Assembly (NCBI GenBank): GCA_017450485.1 | Contig: JAFSTN010000015.1 | Location: 1 to 64,000 of the forward strand | Direction: 5' to 3' | Source of the DNA: Lachnospiraceae bacterium | GTDB taxonomy: Bacteria > Bacillota > Clostridia > Lachnospirales > Lachnospiraceae | DNA: 64,000 bases | Shown here: positions 39,307 through 49,148 of the stretch, one piece after another | How positions within the stretch are numbered: position 1 is the first letter of the stretch | Layout of the letters: every line of letters starts with the position of its first letter | Program-made: the position numbers and the translations under genes | Notes under the pieces: generated by a model | Database searches by the model: none | Seen by the model: only the letters and a program-made list of their open reading frames with translations | Told to the model about the DNA's origin: nothing

Positions 39307-39477
39307 TTATTCCTCAGCGATAGCGCCTACAGGACACTGGCCTGCACAAGCACCGCAGGAAATGCACTTCTCGGGATCGATCTCGAATTTACCGTCTCCC
39401 ATGCTGATAGCGCCTACAGGACACTGAGCCTCGCATGCACCACAAGCTACACAAGAATCACCTATAACAAATGCCAT
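39307..39477 (-). CDS. small 2[4Fe-4S] ferredoxin
   Basis: 56 residues, a clostridial-type low-potential electron carrier. Both cluster motifs are complete: CVACGACEAQCPVGAI and CISCGACAGQCPVGAI, the two halves being near repeats. AAGGAGGAAGGTAATT precedes ATG 39477. It has its own promoter and terminator, downstream of pflA. The electron partners are not identifiable here. Confidence 0.96.
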   Translation of the reverse strand: MAFVIGDSCVACGACEAQCPVGAISMGDGKFEIDPEKCISCGACAGQCPVGAIAEE

Positions 39478-39517: not shown

Positions 39518-39546
39518 ATATTACTATATAAACTGTCCAAAATCAA
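39518..39546 (-). promoter_or_regulatory. ferredoxin promoter
   Basis: TTGATT (39541-39546), 17 bases, TAATAT (39518-39523) on the minus strand; the -35 overlaps the pflA stop codon. Confidence 0.55.
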
Positions 39547-40340
39547 CCGGCTGTGGAATCCAACATTACCGAGTCATCATGAGGGATATTCAGCTCAGCA
39601 CGCCTGTCTTTAATTCCCTGCAGGATCACTTTTTTCTTCTCTATCAGATCCTTCTGCGACATCGCCGGTGTATCTCCCAGCTTGTATTCGATACCCAGCT
39701 TCTCATACTTGGACTTGCCCATAGTGTGATAAGGAAGTGCATCGAGAGCTTTCAGGTTATGGAACTGTCCTATGAAATATCCGAGCTTATACAGATACTC
39801 ATCTTCATCCGTAAGTCCGGGAACGATTACATGCCTGATCCACATATCCACATTCTTCTCATTCAGATATGCCGCAAAAGCCAGTATCCCGTCATTCGGC
39901 TGACCGGTCAGATCCTTATGCTTCTCGGGATCGATATGCTTGATGTCCAGCATTACCAGGTCGGTAAGCTCCATCAGCTTATCCATTTTCTCTATTAAAG
40001 CCGTATTACCCGGCTTAAAAGCTATACCTGAGGTATCTATATCCGTATGAATACCATGCTCCTTTGCCAGAGTGAACAGATCGATCAGGAAATCAATCTG
40101 CATCAGAGGTTCTCCTCCGGTCACGGTGATACCGCCGCTCTCATAGAACGGGCGGTTACGCTCGAAGTTATCTATGATCTCCTGCGGATCGGTCAGTGTA
40201 CCGTCAGTCATAGCCCATGTGTCCGGATTATGGCAATACGCGCATCTCATGGGACATCCCTGTACAAATACGACATATCTCACACCGGGTCCGTCTACGG
40301 TTCCGAAGCTTTCGAGGGAATGTATCTTTCCTTTGGTCAT
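39543..40340 (-). CDS. pflA: pyruvate formate-lyase activating enzyme
   Basis: 265 residues. Radical-SAM enzyme that installs the glycyl radical on pyruvate formate-lyase. The cluster motif is CPMRCAYCHNPDTW; VTGGEPLMQIDFLI is the SAM-binding segment. CAGGAGAGAGTAT precedes ATG 40340. It follows the pfl genes with a terminator between, suggesting lower expression by readthrough. Confidence 0.97.
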   Translation of the reverse strand: MTKGKIHSLESFGTVDGPGVRYVVFVQGCPMRCAYCHNPDTWAMTDGTLTDPQEIIDNFERNRPFYESGGITVTGGEPLMQIDFLIDLFTLAKEHGIHTDIDTSGIAFKPGNTALIEKMDKLMELTDLVMLDIKHIDPEKHKDLTGQPNDGILAFAAYLNEKNVDMWIRHVIVPGLTDEDEYLYKLGYFIGQFHNLKALDALPYHTMGKSKYEKLGIEYKLGDTPAMSQKDLIEKKKVILQGIKDRRAELNIPHDDSVMLDSTAG

Positions 40341-40421: not shown

Positions 40422-40664
40422 TCAGAAGCTCTCGTGGAATGTACGGCTGATAACATCTGCCTGCTGCTCGGGAGTCAGCTTAATGAAGTTAACTGCATAT
40501 CCTGATACGCGGATGGTGAGCTGCGGATAATTCTCAGGATGCTTCTGAGCGTCTAACAGAGTCTCTCTGTTCAGCACATTTACGTTTAAATGATGGCCAC
40601 CCTTGGTAGCATATCCATCAAGTAATGAAACCAGGTTATCAACCTGTGTAGCACTTGCTGCCAT
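40422..40664 (-). CDS. separate glycyl-radical domain of pyruvate formate-lyase
   Basis: 80 residues from ATG 40664; an ATG six bases earlier lies too close to the AGGAGG site. It corresponds to the last ~80 residues of ordinary pyruvate formate-lyase or to the C-terminal part of GrcA/Yfi[39 protein letters not shown] with the radical glycine in the SGY motif, and [13 protein letters not shown]. The large core gene upstream lacks this domain, so the two proteins probably form one enzyme. It is shorter than E. coli GrcA, which adds an unrelated N-terminal part. Same operon as the core and the 66-residue protein, each with its own ribosome site. Confidence 0.93.
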
Positions 40665-40680
40665 TGTCATTTCCTCCTAA

Positions 40681-40881
40681 TTATTTGAAATCATCGAGGC
40701 CGTCCTGAAGTGTAGGTACCGAGCAGGCCAGAGGGGTACGGGAACAATCCGTACACCCCATGGTCTCTACATTCTTAAAACCTTCTACTTCGTCGCTGAC
40801 ATCGACATTTACATGTCCGACACCGCCGGCCATTCCCGCATCCAACATCTTTACCAGATCGTCTATCTGCTTGCTATCCAT
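40681..40881 (-). CDS. 66-residue paralogue of the radical-domain N-half, with a Cys motif
   Basis: The first half (QIDDLVKMLDAGMAGG, VGHVNVDV) aligns with [17 protein letters not shown] and HHLNVNV of the neighbouring radical-domain protein. The second half has no radical glycine segment; instead it has MGCTDCSRTPLACSVPT, with three cysteines, and an acidic end. AGGAGG lies eight to nine bases before ATG 40881, so it is a real, well-translated gene. It sits between the pfl core and the radical domain. Function unknown: it might stabilise the core, shield the active site from oxygen, or act in redox sensing; all are inference. Confidence 0.85.
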   Translation of the reverse strand: MDSKQIDDLVKMLDAGMAGGVGHVNVDVSDEVEGFKNVETMGCTDCSRTPLACSVPTLQDGLDDFK

Positions 40882-40920
40882 GTCATCGACCTCCTAATCT
40901 ATTCCGAACCTGTAATCTTA

Positions 40921-42957
40921 TTAGTTCAGATCTACGTTGATATCGCCTGCGAATACCTTATCTTCCTTACCGAGAGCTCCGGGAATGATAGAGAAGGTAT
41001 TGGAGATACCATCCTGTGCATGCTGGAACGGAAGCTTGGATACTGATGACAGTGAAGCAACAGCACCGTGGGAATCACGTCCGTGCATCGGGTTGGCACC
41101 AGGTGCAAAAGGCTGACCCTTCTTACGTCCGTCAGGAGTATTACCTGTAGCCTTACCATAAGTAACGTTGGAAGTAATGGTAAGAACCGACATTGTCGGG
41201 AAGCCGTCTCTGTAGGTGTGATGACGTCTGAGCATGGTCATGAAGTTCTTAACCAGATCTCTTGCGATAACGTCTACACGGTCATCATCATTACCGTACT
41301 TAGGGAAATCACCTGTAGTCTCAAAGTCAACGATAACGCCGTCCTCATCACGTACAACCTTAACCTGTGCATACTTGATGGCTGACAGGGAATCGGCAAC
41401 AACCGAAAGACCTGCGATACCTGTAGCGAAGTAACGAAGTACGTCTCTGTCATGAAGAGCCATCTGAGCTCTCTCATAGCAGTACTTGTCATGCATATAA
41501 TGGATAACGTTCAGAGTATTTACATATACGTCTGCGAGCCATTCCATCATGTCGGTGAACTTGCTCATAACGTCATCATAATCAAGGATATCGCCTTCAA
41601 CAGGACGATACTTAGGACCTACCTGCTTGTGTGATACTTCATCAACACCGCCGTTTAATGCATACAGGAGGCACTTAGCCAGGTTAGCACGAGCTCCGAA
41701 GAACTGCATCTGCTTACCGATAACCATGGAGGATACGCAGCATGCGATACCATAGTCATCACCGTGTGTAACTCTCATCAGATCATCGTTCTCATACTGG
41801 ATGGAAGATGTGGTGATGGAGATCTTAGCGCAGTACTTCTTCCATGCTTCGGGAAGTCTGGTGGACCAGAGTACTGTCAGGTTAGGCTCAGGTGAAGCAC
41901 CGAGGTTCTCAAGAGTATGCAGATATCTGAAGCTCATCTTGGTAACCATGTGACGTCCGTCAACACCTACGCCGCCGAGAGACTCGGTAACCCATACGGG
42001 ATCGCCTGCGAATATCTGATTGTACTCAGGTGTACGTGCGAACTTAACGCAACGAAGCTTCATGATGAAGTGATCAACGAACTCCTGGATCTGCTCCTCG
42101 GTGAATACACCGTTCTTGAGGTCGCGCTCTGCATAGATGTCAAGGAAGGTAGATGTACGTCCAAGGGACATAGCAGCACCGTTCTGCTCCTTAACTGCTG
42201 ACAGATATCCGAAGTAAGTAGCCTGGATAGCTTCCTGTACGTTCTGTGCGGGACGAGCGATGTCGCATCCGTAAGAAGCAGCCATCTCTTTCATCATCTT
42301 CAAAGCAACGATCTGCTCGGAGAGCTCTTCACGAAGACGGATAACATCATCTGTCATAACACGGCCGGTAGATGCCTTCTGCTCTTCCTTGTCCTCGATC
42401 AGTCTGTCGATACCGTACAGGGCGACACGACGATAGTCGCCGATGATACGTCCACGTCCGTATGCATCCGGAAGACCGGTGATAACGTGTGATGAACGGC
42501 AAGCTCTCATCTCGGGGTTGTAAGCATCGAAGCAGCCTGCATTGTGAGTCTTACGATGTACGGAGAAGAACTCGCTTATCTCGGGATCAACTTCATAACC
42601 GTTGTCTGCGCAAGCCTTCTCTGCCATACGGATACCACCGTAAGGCTGAAGTGAACGCTTGAAGGGCTTGTCTGTCTGGAAACCTACGATAGTCTCCTTG
42701 CTCTTGTCAAGATAGCCGGGGCCGTGAGAAGTGATAGTAGATACAACCTTGGTATCCATATCAAGTACGCCGCCTGCCTCGCGCTCCTGCTTCTGCAGAT
42801 CAAGAACCTGTGCCCACAGATCCTTGGTGTTCTGTGTAGGGCCTGCAAGGAAGGACTCATCTCCGTCATAAGGGGTGTAGTTCTTCTGGATGAAATCACG
42901 AACATTGATCTCGTGATCCCACTTGCCGCCTACGAATTCGTTCCATTCTGGTCTCAT
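40921..42957 (-). CDS. pflB: pyruvate formate-lyase core lacking its glycyl-radical domain
   Basis: 678 residues against about 750-760 in the family. It converts pyruvate and CoA to acetyl-CoA and formate in anaerobic sugar fermentation. The catalytic cysteine pair is present in [15 protein letters not shown], and substrate-pocket segments include [20 protein letters not shown] and [20 protein letters not shown]. It stops after [20 protein letters not shown], where a normal enzyme runs on into the radical domain. That domain is encoded separately at 40422. A clean stop, 39-base spacer and a new ribosome site argue against a sequencing frameshift. Confidence 0.96.
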
Positions 42958-43179: not shown

Positions 43180-43386
43180 ATGGCAGAGATAAATAAGGAT
43201 ATGACTATCGGAGAGATCCTCTCCGTGGCTCCCAATGTCGCTCCCCTTCTGATGGGTGTCGGCATGCATTGCCTCGGTTGCCCCGCTTCACAAGGCGAGA
43301 CCCTCGAGGAAGCCGCTATGGTTCACGGCATCGCAATAGATGAACTCATGGCCTATCTGGACGAAAAGAAAGACACCTGGGCATAA
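43180..43386 (+). CDS. DUF1858 disulfide-type small protein
   Basis: 68 residues from ATG 43180 (AAGGAGAAGAAAA upstream; a longer frame to 43108 crosses the promoter). The family is found alone or fused to hybrid-cluster and redox proteins. Typical [18 protein letters not shown] leads to [19 protein letters not shown] with a CxxC pair that may bind metal or form a disulfide. Divergent from pflB, which together with the Cys pair suggests a role in anaerobic redox control; that is inference. Confidence 0.9.
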
Positions 43387-45246: not shown

Positions 45247-46422
45247 TTACTTACCTGCGTTCTTCTTGTTAGCCACGATATCGAATACAACCGCAGCCAG
45301 AAGCACGATACCCTTGACAACCTTCTGCCAGTTCGCATCCACGCCCGTCAGGGACATGCCCAGGTTGATGACACCGATCAGCGTAGCACCGATGACCATG
45401 CCGAGAACCTTACCGGATCCGCCGTATGCGGATACGCCGCCGACAACGCAGGCTGCGATGGCATCCATCTCGTAGTTGGTACCTGCGGTGGAGTTCGCTG
45501 ACTGGAATCTTGCCATAACTATATAGGATGTGATAACCGTAAGTACTGCCATGTTCAGGTATGCTACGAACATGATCATCTTCGTATCGATACCCGAAAG
45601 TCTGGTTGCCTCCGCGTTACCGCCTATGGTGTAGAAGTAACGGCCCATGATCGTCTTGGATGTAACGAAGCTGTAGATCAGCACGATAACCACTACCCAG
45701 ATAAGAGCTGTAGGTATACCGCCTGCCAGACCCAGCTTGTATGCAAAGAGCATGATCGCTGCGGAAGCTATAACGCTTCTTGCGATAACTGTGAGCATGG
45801 TGTCCGCTTCATAACCCTTCTTAACCTTGTTTGCTCTGGACATGATACCTGTAGCAAATACAACTATACAAGCAATGATACCTGCTACCAGACATACTAT
45901 GTTCAGTCTGCCGATAGGAGTGCTGAATACCTTGCCCGAGAAAGTGTTCAGGAAGCTTTCCGGCAGAGGTGCGATGGATCCTGTGGAAGAGTTCGCCGAC
46001 AGGAGCTTGGTACCCCAGCCTCTGAATGCAAGGTAACCGGCCAGTGTAGCGATCCACGGGGGAACATTGACATATGCGATCAGCCATCCAAGAAGGCATC
46101 CGTATACGATACCTATCAGGAGCATCAGCAGGATCGACAATACGGGGTTCCATCCGTTTATGACCATCATGATACCGCCTACGGCACCTATCAGACATAC
46201 GAAAGAACCGCACGAAAGATCGATGTTACCACCGGTAAGCATACATACCAGCATACCTGTTGCCAGGATATATACGTATGCGTTCTGAGTGATCAGCGCA
46301 TTGAAATTCATCGGCTGGAACATCTGTCCGCCCGTCCTTACGGTAAAGAAAATGTATACCAGGACAAGGACGATCAGCATAGCGTTTTTCTTTAAAACTT
46401 CAACAACTTTAGCGTTTTTCAT
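45247..46422 (-). CDS. monosaccharide ABC transporter permease (second copy)
   Basis: 391 residues, about ten membrane helices, BPD_transp_2 family (MglC/XylH/GguB type). Typical segments: MLVCMLTGGNIDLSCGSFVC, PWIATLAGYLAFRGWG, GRYFYTIGGNAEATRLSGI and the loop VVGGVSAYGGSGKVLGMVIGAT. Closely related in sequence to the adjacent permease at 46439, so the pair arose by duplication. Heterodimer formation is likely but not proven. Confidence 0.93.
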   Translation of the reverse strand: MKNAKVVEVLKKNAMLIVLVLVYIFFTVRTGGQMFQPMNFNALITQNAYVYILATGMLVCMLTGGNIDLSCGSFVCLIGAVGGIMMVINGWNPVLSILLMLLIGIVYGCLLGWLIAYVNVPPWIATLAGYLAFRGWGTKLLSANSSTGSIAPLPESFLNTFSGKVFSTPIGRLNIVCLVAGIIACIVVFATGIMSRANKVKKGYEADTMLTVIARSVIASAAIMLFAYKLGLAGGIPTALIWVVVIVLIYSFVTSKTIMGRYFYTIGGNAEATRLSGIDTKMIMFVAYLNMAVLTVITSYIVMARFQSANSTAGTNYEMDAIAACVVGGVSAYGGSGKVLGMVIGATLIGVINLGMSLTGVDANWQKVVKGIVLLAAVVFDIVANKKNAGK

Positions 46423-46438
46423 TGTTCATCCTCCTCCC

Positions 46439-47608
46439 TTACTTTTTCTTCTTATTGGACATTACGTCAAATATGATAGCCAACAGGAGAACGAGTCCCT
46501 TGACAACCTTCTGGTAGTTGGCATCTGTACCCATGATACTCATGCCCTGGTTGATAACACCCATGAGCACGGCACCTATGATGACACCGAAGATATTACC
46601 TTCACCGCCGTATGCGCTCGCACCGCCGATGAAGCAGGCAGCGATGGCGTCCATCTCATAGCCCTGGCCGAATGTGGGCTGTGCCTGTGTAGCTCTCGCT
46701 ACTGTAAGGATACCGCCCAGACCTGCCATCAGGCCCATATTGATATATGCAAAGAAGTATACCTTACGTGAGTCGATACCGGACAGGACCGTTGCTTTCT
46801 CATTACCGCCGACAGCGTAGAGATAACGTCCCATAGTGGTCTTGGTAGTGATATATGAGTATATCAGCAGGACCAGTGCGATCCATATCAGAGATGTGGG
46901 GATACCCTTGTAGTTAGCCAGCTTATAGAACAGCCATATTACTACGGCACAGATGATCACTGTCTTAACTATTACGGAAGGAAGCGCCTCAACCTCATAT
47001 CCGTTAGCTTTTGCACTGATGCGGTTACGCAGGATCACGATAACATAGATCGCTGATATCGCAATGCCTATGACCATACATGTGGTATTGAAGTTTGCAC
47101 TGCCCATAAAATCGGGGATGTAGCAATCGGCACCTCCACCGAATACGTTGAGGAATGTGGTGTTTCTGATACCCACAACGTAACCCTGCAGGAGCACGTT
47201 GGAAAGACCTCTGAATGCATACATGCCGGACAGCGTTGCTATGAACGGCGGAACCTTGAAGTATGCGATCCAGAATCCCTGCCATACACCTATGATCGTA
47301 CCGCATAACAGCATGGCGATAACAGCTACCCATACGTTCATTTCGCGGTCCATCATGACTGCACCGAGACCTCCGGCGAAGCATACTACCGAGCCGCAGG
47401 CCAGATCGATGTTACCACCGGTCAGGATACACAGCAGCATACCTGCCGCCAGCACGAACACATATGCGTTCTGAGAGATCAGGTTGTTGATATTCTGTGC
47501 AAAAAGAATCTTACCCTCTGTAGTGAAATAGAAGAATATGATCACCAGTACAAGGGCGATAACCATGGTGTATTTTTTAAGTACATCTGTAAGTTTTATA
47601 CCTTTCAT
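46439..47608 (-). CDS. mmsB: monosaccharide ABC transporter permease (first copy)
   Basis: 389 residues, about ten membrane helices. Same family: MLLCILTGGNIDLACGSVVC, FKVPPFIATLSGMYAFRGLS, GRYLYAVGGNEKATVLSGID, CFIGGASAYGGEGNIFGVI. One base after the ATPase gene, so co-translated. Sugar specificity cannot be read from sequence; the MmsAB/ChvE-GguAB group handles several monosaccharides such as galactose, arabinose, xylose and glucose. Confidence 0.93.
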   Translation of the reverse strand: MKGIKLTDVLKKYTMVIALVLVIIFFYFTTEGKILFAQNINNLISQNAYVFVLAAGMLLCILTGGNIDLACGSVVCFAGGLGAVMMDREMNVWVAVIAMLLCGTIIGVWQGFWIAYFKVPPFIATLSGMYAFRGLSNVLLQGYVVGIRNTTFLNVFGGGADCYIPDFMGSANFNTTCMVIGIAISAIYVIVILRNRISAKANGYEVEALPSVIVKTVIICAVVIWLFYKLANYKGIPTSLIWIALVLLIYSYITTKTTMGRYLYAVGGNEKATVLSGIDSRKVYFFAYINMGLMAGLGGILTVARATQAQPTFGQGYEMDAIAACFIGGASAYGGEGNIFGVIIGAVLMGVINQGMSIMGTDANYQKVVKGLVLLLAIIFDVMSNKKKK

Positions 47609-47609
47609 A

Positions 47610-49148
47610 TCACTCGCCCTTTCCTGACTGTATGATACAAGCCATAATATTTTCCTGAGTTGCCTCGGATGCCCTCATCTCACCCATGAACTTACCTTCG
47701 TTCATGATATAGATCCTGTCGCTCATGCCGATGACCTCGGGAAGCTCGGAGGATATCATGATGACTGATTTGCCCATAGCTACGAGATCATTGATGATGC
47801 AGTAGATCTCATACTTGGCGCCCACGTCGATTCCTCTGGTGGGTTCATCCAGGATCAGTATGTCGGGATCAGTGAACATCCACTTTGCCAACAGAACCTT
47901 CTGCTGGTTACCACCTGAGAGGTTGCCTACATTCTGCTCTACGGAAGGAGTTTTGGTCTTAAGCTTTTCTTTGTACTCAACGGCTATCTGATACTCTTTA
48001 TCCATATCTATGACGCCGTGCGAACTTACTCCGGTCAGATTAGCCAGAGAAGTGTTGACTCTGATGGGATTGGACAGCACCAGGCCGTTTCCTTTACGAT
48101 CCTCTGTCACATATGCGATCTTGGCATTGATAGCTTCTCTGGGGTTCTTGAGAGTCACTTCTTTGCCGCCGACCTTAAGTGTTCCCTGTATATCATAGCC
48201 GTATGAACGACCGAATATACTCATGGCAAGCTCGGTACGACCGGCTCCCATCAGTCCGTAGATACCTACAACCTCACCCTTGCGAACGTTAAGGCTGACA
48301 TTATCTACAACCTTACGCTCCGTATATACGGGATGATATACGGTCCAGTTATCCACTTCCATATTGATATCGCCGATGGTCACATTTTCTCTCTTCGGGA
48401 ATCGGTCTGTGATCTCACGACCTACCATACCCTTGATGATCCTGGCCTCGTCGATCTCCGTTGTATGTTTATCCAAGGTCTCGATGGTCGCGCCATCACG
48501 CACTACGGTGATCTTGTCTGCAACGTACACAACCTCGTTGAGCTTATGTGTGATGATGATCATCGTCATGCCCTGCTTCTTGAACTCAAGCATGAGATCA
48601 AGCAGCGCCTTGGAATCGGTTTCGTTAAGTGATGATGTGGGTTCGTCCAGGATAAGGAGCTTCGCATTCTTGGCGAGTGCCTTCGCGATCTCGACCAGCT
48701 GCTGCTTACCTGTACCGATGTCCTTGATCAGGACATGTGAGGACTCTGACAGTCCTACCATCTTCAGATATTTGTCTGCTTCTTTATAGGTTTCGTTCCA
48801 GTTGATCGCATTCTTTTTGCCGCGCTCATTACCCAGGAACATGTTCTCGCCTATAGACATCTGAGGAACCAGTGCCAGCTCCTGATGTATGATTACGATT
48901 CCCTTTTTCTCGGAATCTTTAATGGTCTGGAATTGACATACCTCGCCATTATAGATGATATCTCCCTCGTATGTTCCGTAAGGATAGATACCGCTCAAAA
49001 CATTCATCAGTGTCGACTTTCCCGCTCCGTTCTCACCGACCAGAGCATGGATTTCGCCCTCTTCAACCTGGAAATTCACGTTGTCGAGAGCCTTAACACC
49101 GGGGAATGTTTTGGTTATGTTCTTCATTTCCAATAAAACGTTAGCCAA
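47610..49148 (-). CDS. mmsA: monosaccharide ABC transporter ATPase with two nucleotide domains
   Basis: 512 residues. The first half has Walker [17 protein letters not shown] and Walker [14 protein letters not shown], with [16 protein letters not shown] in the signature position. The second has [28 protein letters not shown] and [16 protein letters not shown]. The insert [16 protein letters not shown] after the first loop is typical of the MmsA/GguA subgroup. Energises sugar uptake with the two permeases. Confidence 0.96.

Follow-up and report, generated by a model that had tools for sequence, protein, structure and literature searches.

Pyruvate formate-lyase encoded as a separate catalytic core, a free glycyl-radical subunit and a small cysteine-tailed protein in Lachnospiraceae

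We describe here the pyruvate formate-lyase (PFL) locus found in a 64,000-nucleotide stretch of DNA from a Lachnospiraceae bacterium, referred to below as the window. The locus is read from the minus strand in the order core, 66-aa gene, GrcA3, pflA and ferredoxin; successive genes are 39, 10, 81 and 65 bp apart, and an AGGAG(G) ribosome site precedes each of them (Table 1). The ferredoxin gene, located 65 bp past pflA on the same strand, is assumed from gene order to be an operon member. Upstream of the core lies a divergent DUF1858 gene (43180-43386), and further away a tandem pair of sugar-type ABC permease genes (45247-47608) with one ATPase gene (47610-49148), these transporter genes being named by eye.

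Table 1. Features of the PFL locus, given in window positions
Feature	Position	Strand	Basis
Split PFL catalytic core, 678 aa	40921..42957	-	TIGR01255 1095 bits, PF02901 730 bits
Vicinal catalytic cysteines, core residues 406-407	41737..41742	-	ACC motif
66-aa tail-carrier protein gene	40681..40881	-	NF038360 weak match, residues 2-29, E 9e-4; alignment A1
GHVNVDV stretch of the 66-aa protein	40798..40818	-	resembles radical-subunit GGHHLNVNV (beta-10-type strand)
Cys tail CTDCSRTPLAC of the 66-aa protein (Cys43, 46, 53)	40723..40755	-	
Free glycyl-radical subunit (GrcA3)	40422..40670	-	NF038360 160.7 bits, cut-off 158
Radical glycine codon, Gly57 of the 82-aa frame, RVSGYAV	40500..40502	-	alignment to PFL
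pflA, PFL-activating radical SAM enzyme	39543..40340	-	TIGR02493 291 bits, cut-off 231.75
Ferredoxin, 56 aa, two Fer4 stretches	39307..39477	-	NF058577 87.5 bits, cut-off 65

The core match to TIGR01255 spans positions 2-665 of 744 and exceeds the cut-off of 994 bits, and the gene ends with a TAA stop and contains no radical glycine. Its Cys406-407 are taken, by the ACC motif, as equivalent to C418/C419 of the E. coli enzyme (numbering as in PMC12338860). The GrcA3 frame counts 82 aa from the first ATG and 80 aa from an ATG at the third codon; the latter, at 40664, is better spaced and is the probable start. The preliminary description, a 678-residue core with the Cys pair but no radical domain, the domain itself forming an independent 80-residue protein, and each part having its own stop, spacer and ribosome site, was borne out in these respects, its residue count corresponding to the third-codon ATG. 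It had overlooked three points: the 66-aa gene forms a conserved third component, the arrangement is widely spread in the family, and a model for the free domain exists. Such domains are known to annotators, since NCBIfam holds the GrcA3 model NF038360 and the 82-aa protein of the window passes its cut-off.

Window GrcA3 scores below the cut-offs of GrcA (TIGR04365, 102 vs 170 bits) and GrcA2 (PRK11127, 107 vs 145 bits), and its top PDB chains are GrcA 6owr and PFL 1cm5. Like E. coli GrcA/YfiD, it consists of a stand-alone glycyl-radical domain and has the RVSGYAV loop; phage T4 Y06I is another known spare-part protein. According to the accessible passages of PMC8683613, YfiD can complete damaged PFL; it repairs an otherwise single-chain enzyme and has a 60-residue disordered N-part, whereas the radical domain of the window is a separate 80-82-aa subunit beside which no single-chain PFL was found. 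NF038360 names GrcA3 an autonomous cofactor, while its partner in the window is a core lacking the radical domain; the NCBI curators behind the model may have noted this partner.

In the window's own genome (49 contigs, 91% complete) a single PFL-core match was obtained, the split one, and no second core. A glycyl-radical match on contig C43, considered as a second PFL, proved to be class III ribonucleotide reductase. Two NrdD matches above cut-off are present in this genome (G000:C10:88495-90276 and G000:C43:40645-42498). No relative was found among viral contigs searched with the core as a single protein.

To describe relatives we used the best 80 of 532 stretches encoding a 66-aa relative, obtained by scanning a species-genome collection. 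On 73 of these 80 contigs the core is followed by the 66-aa gene and then by the radical gene, whereas seven contigs end before one of the three is reached; the named contigs nearest to the window are labelled Lachnospiraceae. Across the 80 loci and the window median dN/dS is 0.038 for the core, 0.055 for GrcA3 and 0.088 for the 66-aa gene (the last from 759 pairs with dS 0.2-1.5). The idea that a normal PFL has been broken in this strain, by assembly error, frameshift or decay to a pseudogene, has nothing in its favour but the stop at 40921; the layout recurring on all contigs that do not stop at an edge, the low dN/dS in all three genes and the failure to find a full-length PFL speak against it, and on these sequence grounds we consider it refuted.

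The family survey covered 150 genomes from 149 genera, at least 90% complete, the extent of each hit being read by hand from the table. PFL1 was above cut-off in 116 of them: 65 have the full-length form, 54 the split form and 3 both, so that 51 of the 54 split genomes are without any full-length PFL1. The preliminary view that the split form is the only one thus holds for the window's own genome and for these 51. Kept outside the counts were G060 and G022, whose cores end at contig ends (66-aa and GrcA3 genes are present; L068, L214), fragments in G089 and G142, and split cores from beyond the 150 genomes, including that of G428 (L063). Outside the family, split cores occur in 4 of 73 genomes with an over-cut-off match (G428, G343, G367 and G387; class survey, n=147). 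A PF02901 survey of 299 genomes served only to choose the approach. In fifteen further genomes, reached via 66-aa-gene loci (XBB2008, D16-50, 1xD42-87, 10-1 and Parablautia intestinalis D8-82 among them), we found one split core each and never a full-length PFL1; this set was chosen by the 66-aa gene, and therefore only the absence of the full-length enzyme is news.

A quick IQ-TREE phylogeny, with tail columns excluded, was calculated for 90 cores (59 split and 31 of the 32 full-length ones fetched). All split cores fall into one group with 99 SH-aLRT, in a tree where 29 of 87 inner branches are open and support is given as SH-aLRT, with no bootstrap. Nested in the split group are the full-length L079, L080 and L085, forming their own clade (100), and L083. 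The last (G096:C26:146500-150890) is a single chain consisting of core, Cys-tail remnant VTCGCEEVTCAVD and radical domain; this domain is GrcA3-like and above the GrcA3 cut-off, and L083 looks like a re-fusion. The tree is most simply read as a single split that was followed by re-fusion at least twice and by transfer to other families, although change counts alone give no direction. Because split cores form one clade, evolve with low dN/dS and are found in many genera, we call the split maintained, as the preliminary description had done in preference to a recent frameshift.

The 66-aa protein consists of a degenerate N-part of the radical domain (IDDLVKMLD..GxGHVNVxV) followed by a Cys tail, with no SGY glycine loop. 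The tail follows the pattern C-x(n)-A-C-x-[VI]-P-T-L-x-x-G-[LI]-D. In alignment A1 (30 members) D14, G22, H23 and C46 are invariant and N25, A52, C53, P56, T57 and L58 nearly so; four members were excluded from it, among them L036, which has GR for GH. The proteins of L020 and L028 end ahead of the second cysteine of the pair. The SGY loop is absent from 81 of 81 small proteins (80 loci and the window), and the Cys motif is present in all 81, partly by construction because the search and the filter used it. Its low dN/dS marks purifying selection, and we count the 66-aa gene as a genuine third component. No significant sequence or profile relative of the family was found in the PDB (E 0.35 and 0.54, to unrelated chains). 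Another small paralog family, with an N-part like that of the 66-aa protein and the sequence YHHGRCDVGSPxA, was seen on other contigs, in 3 of the 10 loci retrieved because of matches of this type (L203:2487-2762, L205:969-1163, L207:2650-2847), and a different paralog in L210; those of L203 and L207 have no Pfam match.

The Cys tail was found in 54 of 54 split genomes: in 35 in trans, as the small protein detected with the A1 profile, and in 19 in cis, fused to the core end, with no genome having both or neither. In two genomes (G002, G130) the trans protein is encoded away from the PFL operon, and in G012 and G026 it is cut short. Every cis tail has at least two cysteines; the strict motif is kept in 11 of 19, the other eight being looser (e.g. 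DCACCEPN). The trans protein occurs in 0 of 62 full-length-only genomes, a set that includes G096, the bearer of re-fused L083; no A1 match there reaches beyond profile position 33, and these matches come from the genomes' own radical domains. Outside the family, G428 (L063) has neither cis tail nor trans protein within the 3 kb covered. The cis/trans state changes seven times on the best tree, and swaps on well-supported branches give only three independent pairs, 3/3 in opposite states (p 0.25).

What the small protein does can be approached from either of its halves. It could be an activation partner, the trans equivalent of the remnant left in cleaved PFL (E. coli residues 696-733), its cysteines being secondary. 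Its N-part resembles the remnant region, including the GHxNVxV stretch, whose counterpart GGHHLNVNV has a strand role (available sections of PMC8683613). The same sections report that truncated E. coli PFL, which lacks 696-733, gives no binding to YfiD by ITC and is activated 32-fold less than cleaved PFL. On the other side, 19 of the 54 systems have no strand copy, only a Cys tail fused to the core. The strand is not indispensable in those systems, because only the tail is kept there, and we regard this explanation as possible but on the unlikely side. Since the tail is kept with or without the strand copy, we regard it as the part that matters most, and the strand copy as its means of reaching the core.

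Alternatively, the Cys tail could form a metal or Fe-S site, which would make the 66-aa protein a counterpart of the accessory subunits of benzylsuccinate synthase (BSS) and 4-hydroxyphenylacetate decarboxylase (HPAD). Those subunits are likewise small (7-10 kDa) and cysteine-containing and bind [4Fe-4S], and a 2025 paper states that glycyl radical enzymes may have more accessory subunits, so far overlooked or left unannotated (PMC12590467). Encoding in the same gene cluster also fits. The 66-aa protein, however, resembles the radical domain, and its two near-invariant cysteines would not suffice to ligate one [4Fe-4S] cluster in each chain; this and the lack of a significant profile match to any PDB chain speak against the Fe-S reading, which we hold to be less likely than the activation partner.

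A third comparison concerns class I ribonucleotide reductase R1, whose C-terminal tail re-reduces the R1 active site. Core tails such as DGCGDMACKVP and DCLDSACRIP share with it a C-terminal C-x4-C; this is an analogy and no homology is claimed. The E. coli R1 tail, DDGCESGACKI, agrees with the final 21 residues of R1 chains from the PDB. The likeness to the R1 tail suggests that the tail of the split enzyme may serve in redox chemistry or in shielding.

A second free radical domain is encoded in the own genome of the window on contig C9, away from the operon. This unlinked grcA3 is preceded by AGTAATCGTTACT. The pattern AGTAAYNRTTACT has one further occurrence in this genome of 2.6 Mb, immediately ahead of a PerR-like Fur-family gene that is followed by a rubrerythrin gene; the backward control pattern was not found. 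Two genes past the unlinked grcA3 there is a thioredoxin-like gene (L001:2684-3007, WCGPC, by eye). The palindrome is present both at the unlinked grcA3 and at the Fur-family/rubrerythrin locus in G041, G031 and G144; of their regulators only that of G031 was scored, the others being alike by eye. G031 has it in six places, the three inspected being these two and one at another rubrerythrin, and in G144 the backward control occurs in 8 places vs 2 for the palindrome. The regulator tied to the unlinked grcA3 scores 100.7 bits with Pfam FUR, and its best NCBIfam match is PerR, at 102 bits vs a cut-off of 180.

In total 17 unlinked copies were collected, 7 from the 150 family genomes (>150 bits) and 10 from the 15 genomes reached via 66-aa-gene loci. 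The exact palindrome lies within 200 bp upstream of 9 of the 17, where base shuffles put chance at about 1e-4; four of these nine had been used to define the pattern. The other 8 are without it, and among 15 operon copies none has it. Among the ten new copies five have the palindrome, two of them in genomes whose 66-aa protein is 98% identical to that of the window. The second GrcA3 of G097 (L107) is a duplicate operon piece and was removed from the 17; palindromes in G112, at ribosomal-protein genes, and in G097, near no recognised gene, were taken as chance. Five palindrome-less unlinked copies have a Crp/Fnr-family regulator gene upstream, at 136-156 bp in L105, L108, L226 and L227 and at 566 bp in L104. 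A weaker (53 bits) stand-alone match to the glycyl-radical domain, of 78 aa, was noticed at G447:C2:172120-172296.

These copies bear on the function that the preliminary description had proposed for the split, namely exchange of the radical subunit after oxygen damage. Exchange receives indirect support because a second, unlinked radical-subunit gene is common and often stands behind a PerR-type palindrome; the shared motif suggests PerR-type control of that gene. The opposing explanation is neutral gene fission, with the radical domain as an ordinary permanent subunit, no exchange, and the second copy a mere duplicate. A single origin of the split followed by two apparent re-fusions, which implies that both states are viable, agrees with it, as do 5 of the 15 genomes where no second copy above 150 bits was found. 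It explains less well why the second copy stands apart from the operon, recurs in several genera and frequently follows a palindrome common to a PerR-like/rubrerythrin locus, and it would not predict a Cys tail in all 54 split systems or the lack of the trans protein in the 62 full-length-only genomes. Neutral fission appears rather unlikely to us, though less so than the Fe-S site.

Our preferred reading, to which we give a probability of about 0.65, is a multi-part PFL composed of the core, an exchangeable GrcA3 and a Cys-tail part, with a spare radical subunit under PerR-type control. Its basis is plain from the sequence, core and radical domain being encoded by separate neighbouring genes in a genome where no full-length PFL was found. 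A parallel is found in E. coli, where, according to PMC8683613, oxygen cleaves the loop with Gly734 and YfiD provides a replacement loop and strand; truncated PFL (1-695) with YfiD is as active as the wild type once activated, and YfiD is activated by PFL-AE only when a PFL variant is present. The window core is a natural version of this cut core, and therefore its radical subunit must dock from outside. As truncated E. coli PFL binds YfiD poorly, the split enzyme needs something more; the tail protein combines a dithiol tail with a copy of the docking stretch and is therefore the obvious candidate for overcoming weak docking of GrcA3.

In the multi-part enzyme so envisaged, GrcA3 would fill the vacant strand site of the core and be activated by PflA within the complex. 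Cleavage of the radical loop by oxygen would then cost only the 80-aa subunit, and the PerR-type-controlled second copy would deliver replacements. The 66-aa protein may dock at or near the same strand site and bring its dithiol tail to the barrel mouth, where it would most likely hold the core with its vicinal cysteines in a competent state, either reduced or shielded, as long as no intact radical subunit is bound; alternatively, it may aid loading and activation of GrcA3. The complete scheme, a replaceable-part enzyme with a disposable radical subunit, a PerR-type spare and a pseudo-radical caretaker servicing the core cysteines when the radical seat is empty, is offered tentatively and with clearly less confidence than the multi-part enzyme as such, the function of the Cys tail being its hypothetical element.

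In the literature searched, which covered few subscription papers and some sources in part, we found no description of a split PFL or of the tail protein. The available part of a Roseburia genome paper lists pflD and an adjacent activase and there makes no mention of a split (PMC7478625). The free domain family GrcA3 was already known; the partner core without the domain and the third part were found in no paper of this literature.

PFL has a central place in fermentation and serves as a model for oxygen-sensitive radical catalysis. In a natural PFL whose vulnerable part forms a subunit by itself, the exchange of radical subunits can be tested directly. The finding also brings in an accessory subunit not described before, of which nature offers both cis and trans versions. 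For annotation it means that the window core passes the NCBI formate C-acetyltransferase model cut-off despite the absent radical domain, while the obligate partner of the core carries a spare-part name. Should the PerR link be borne out, PFL repair in these anaerobes would follow a regulated route.
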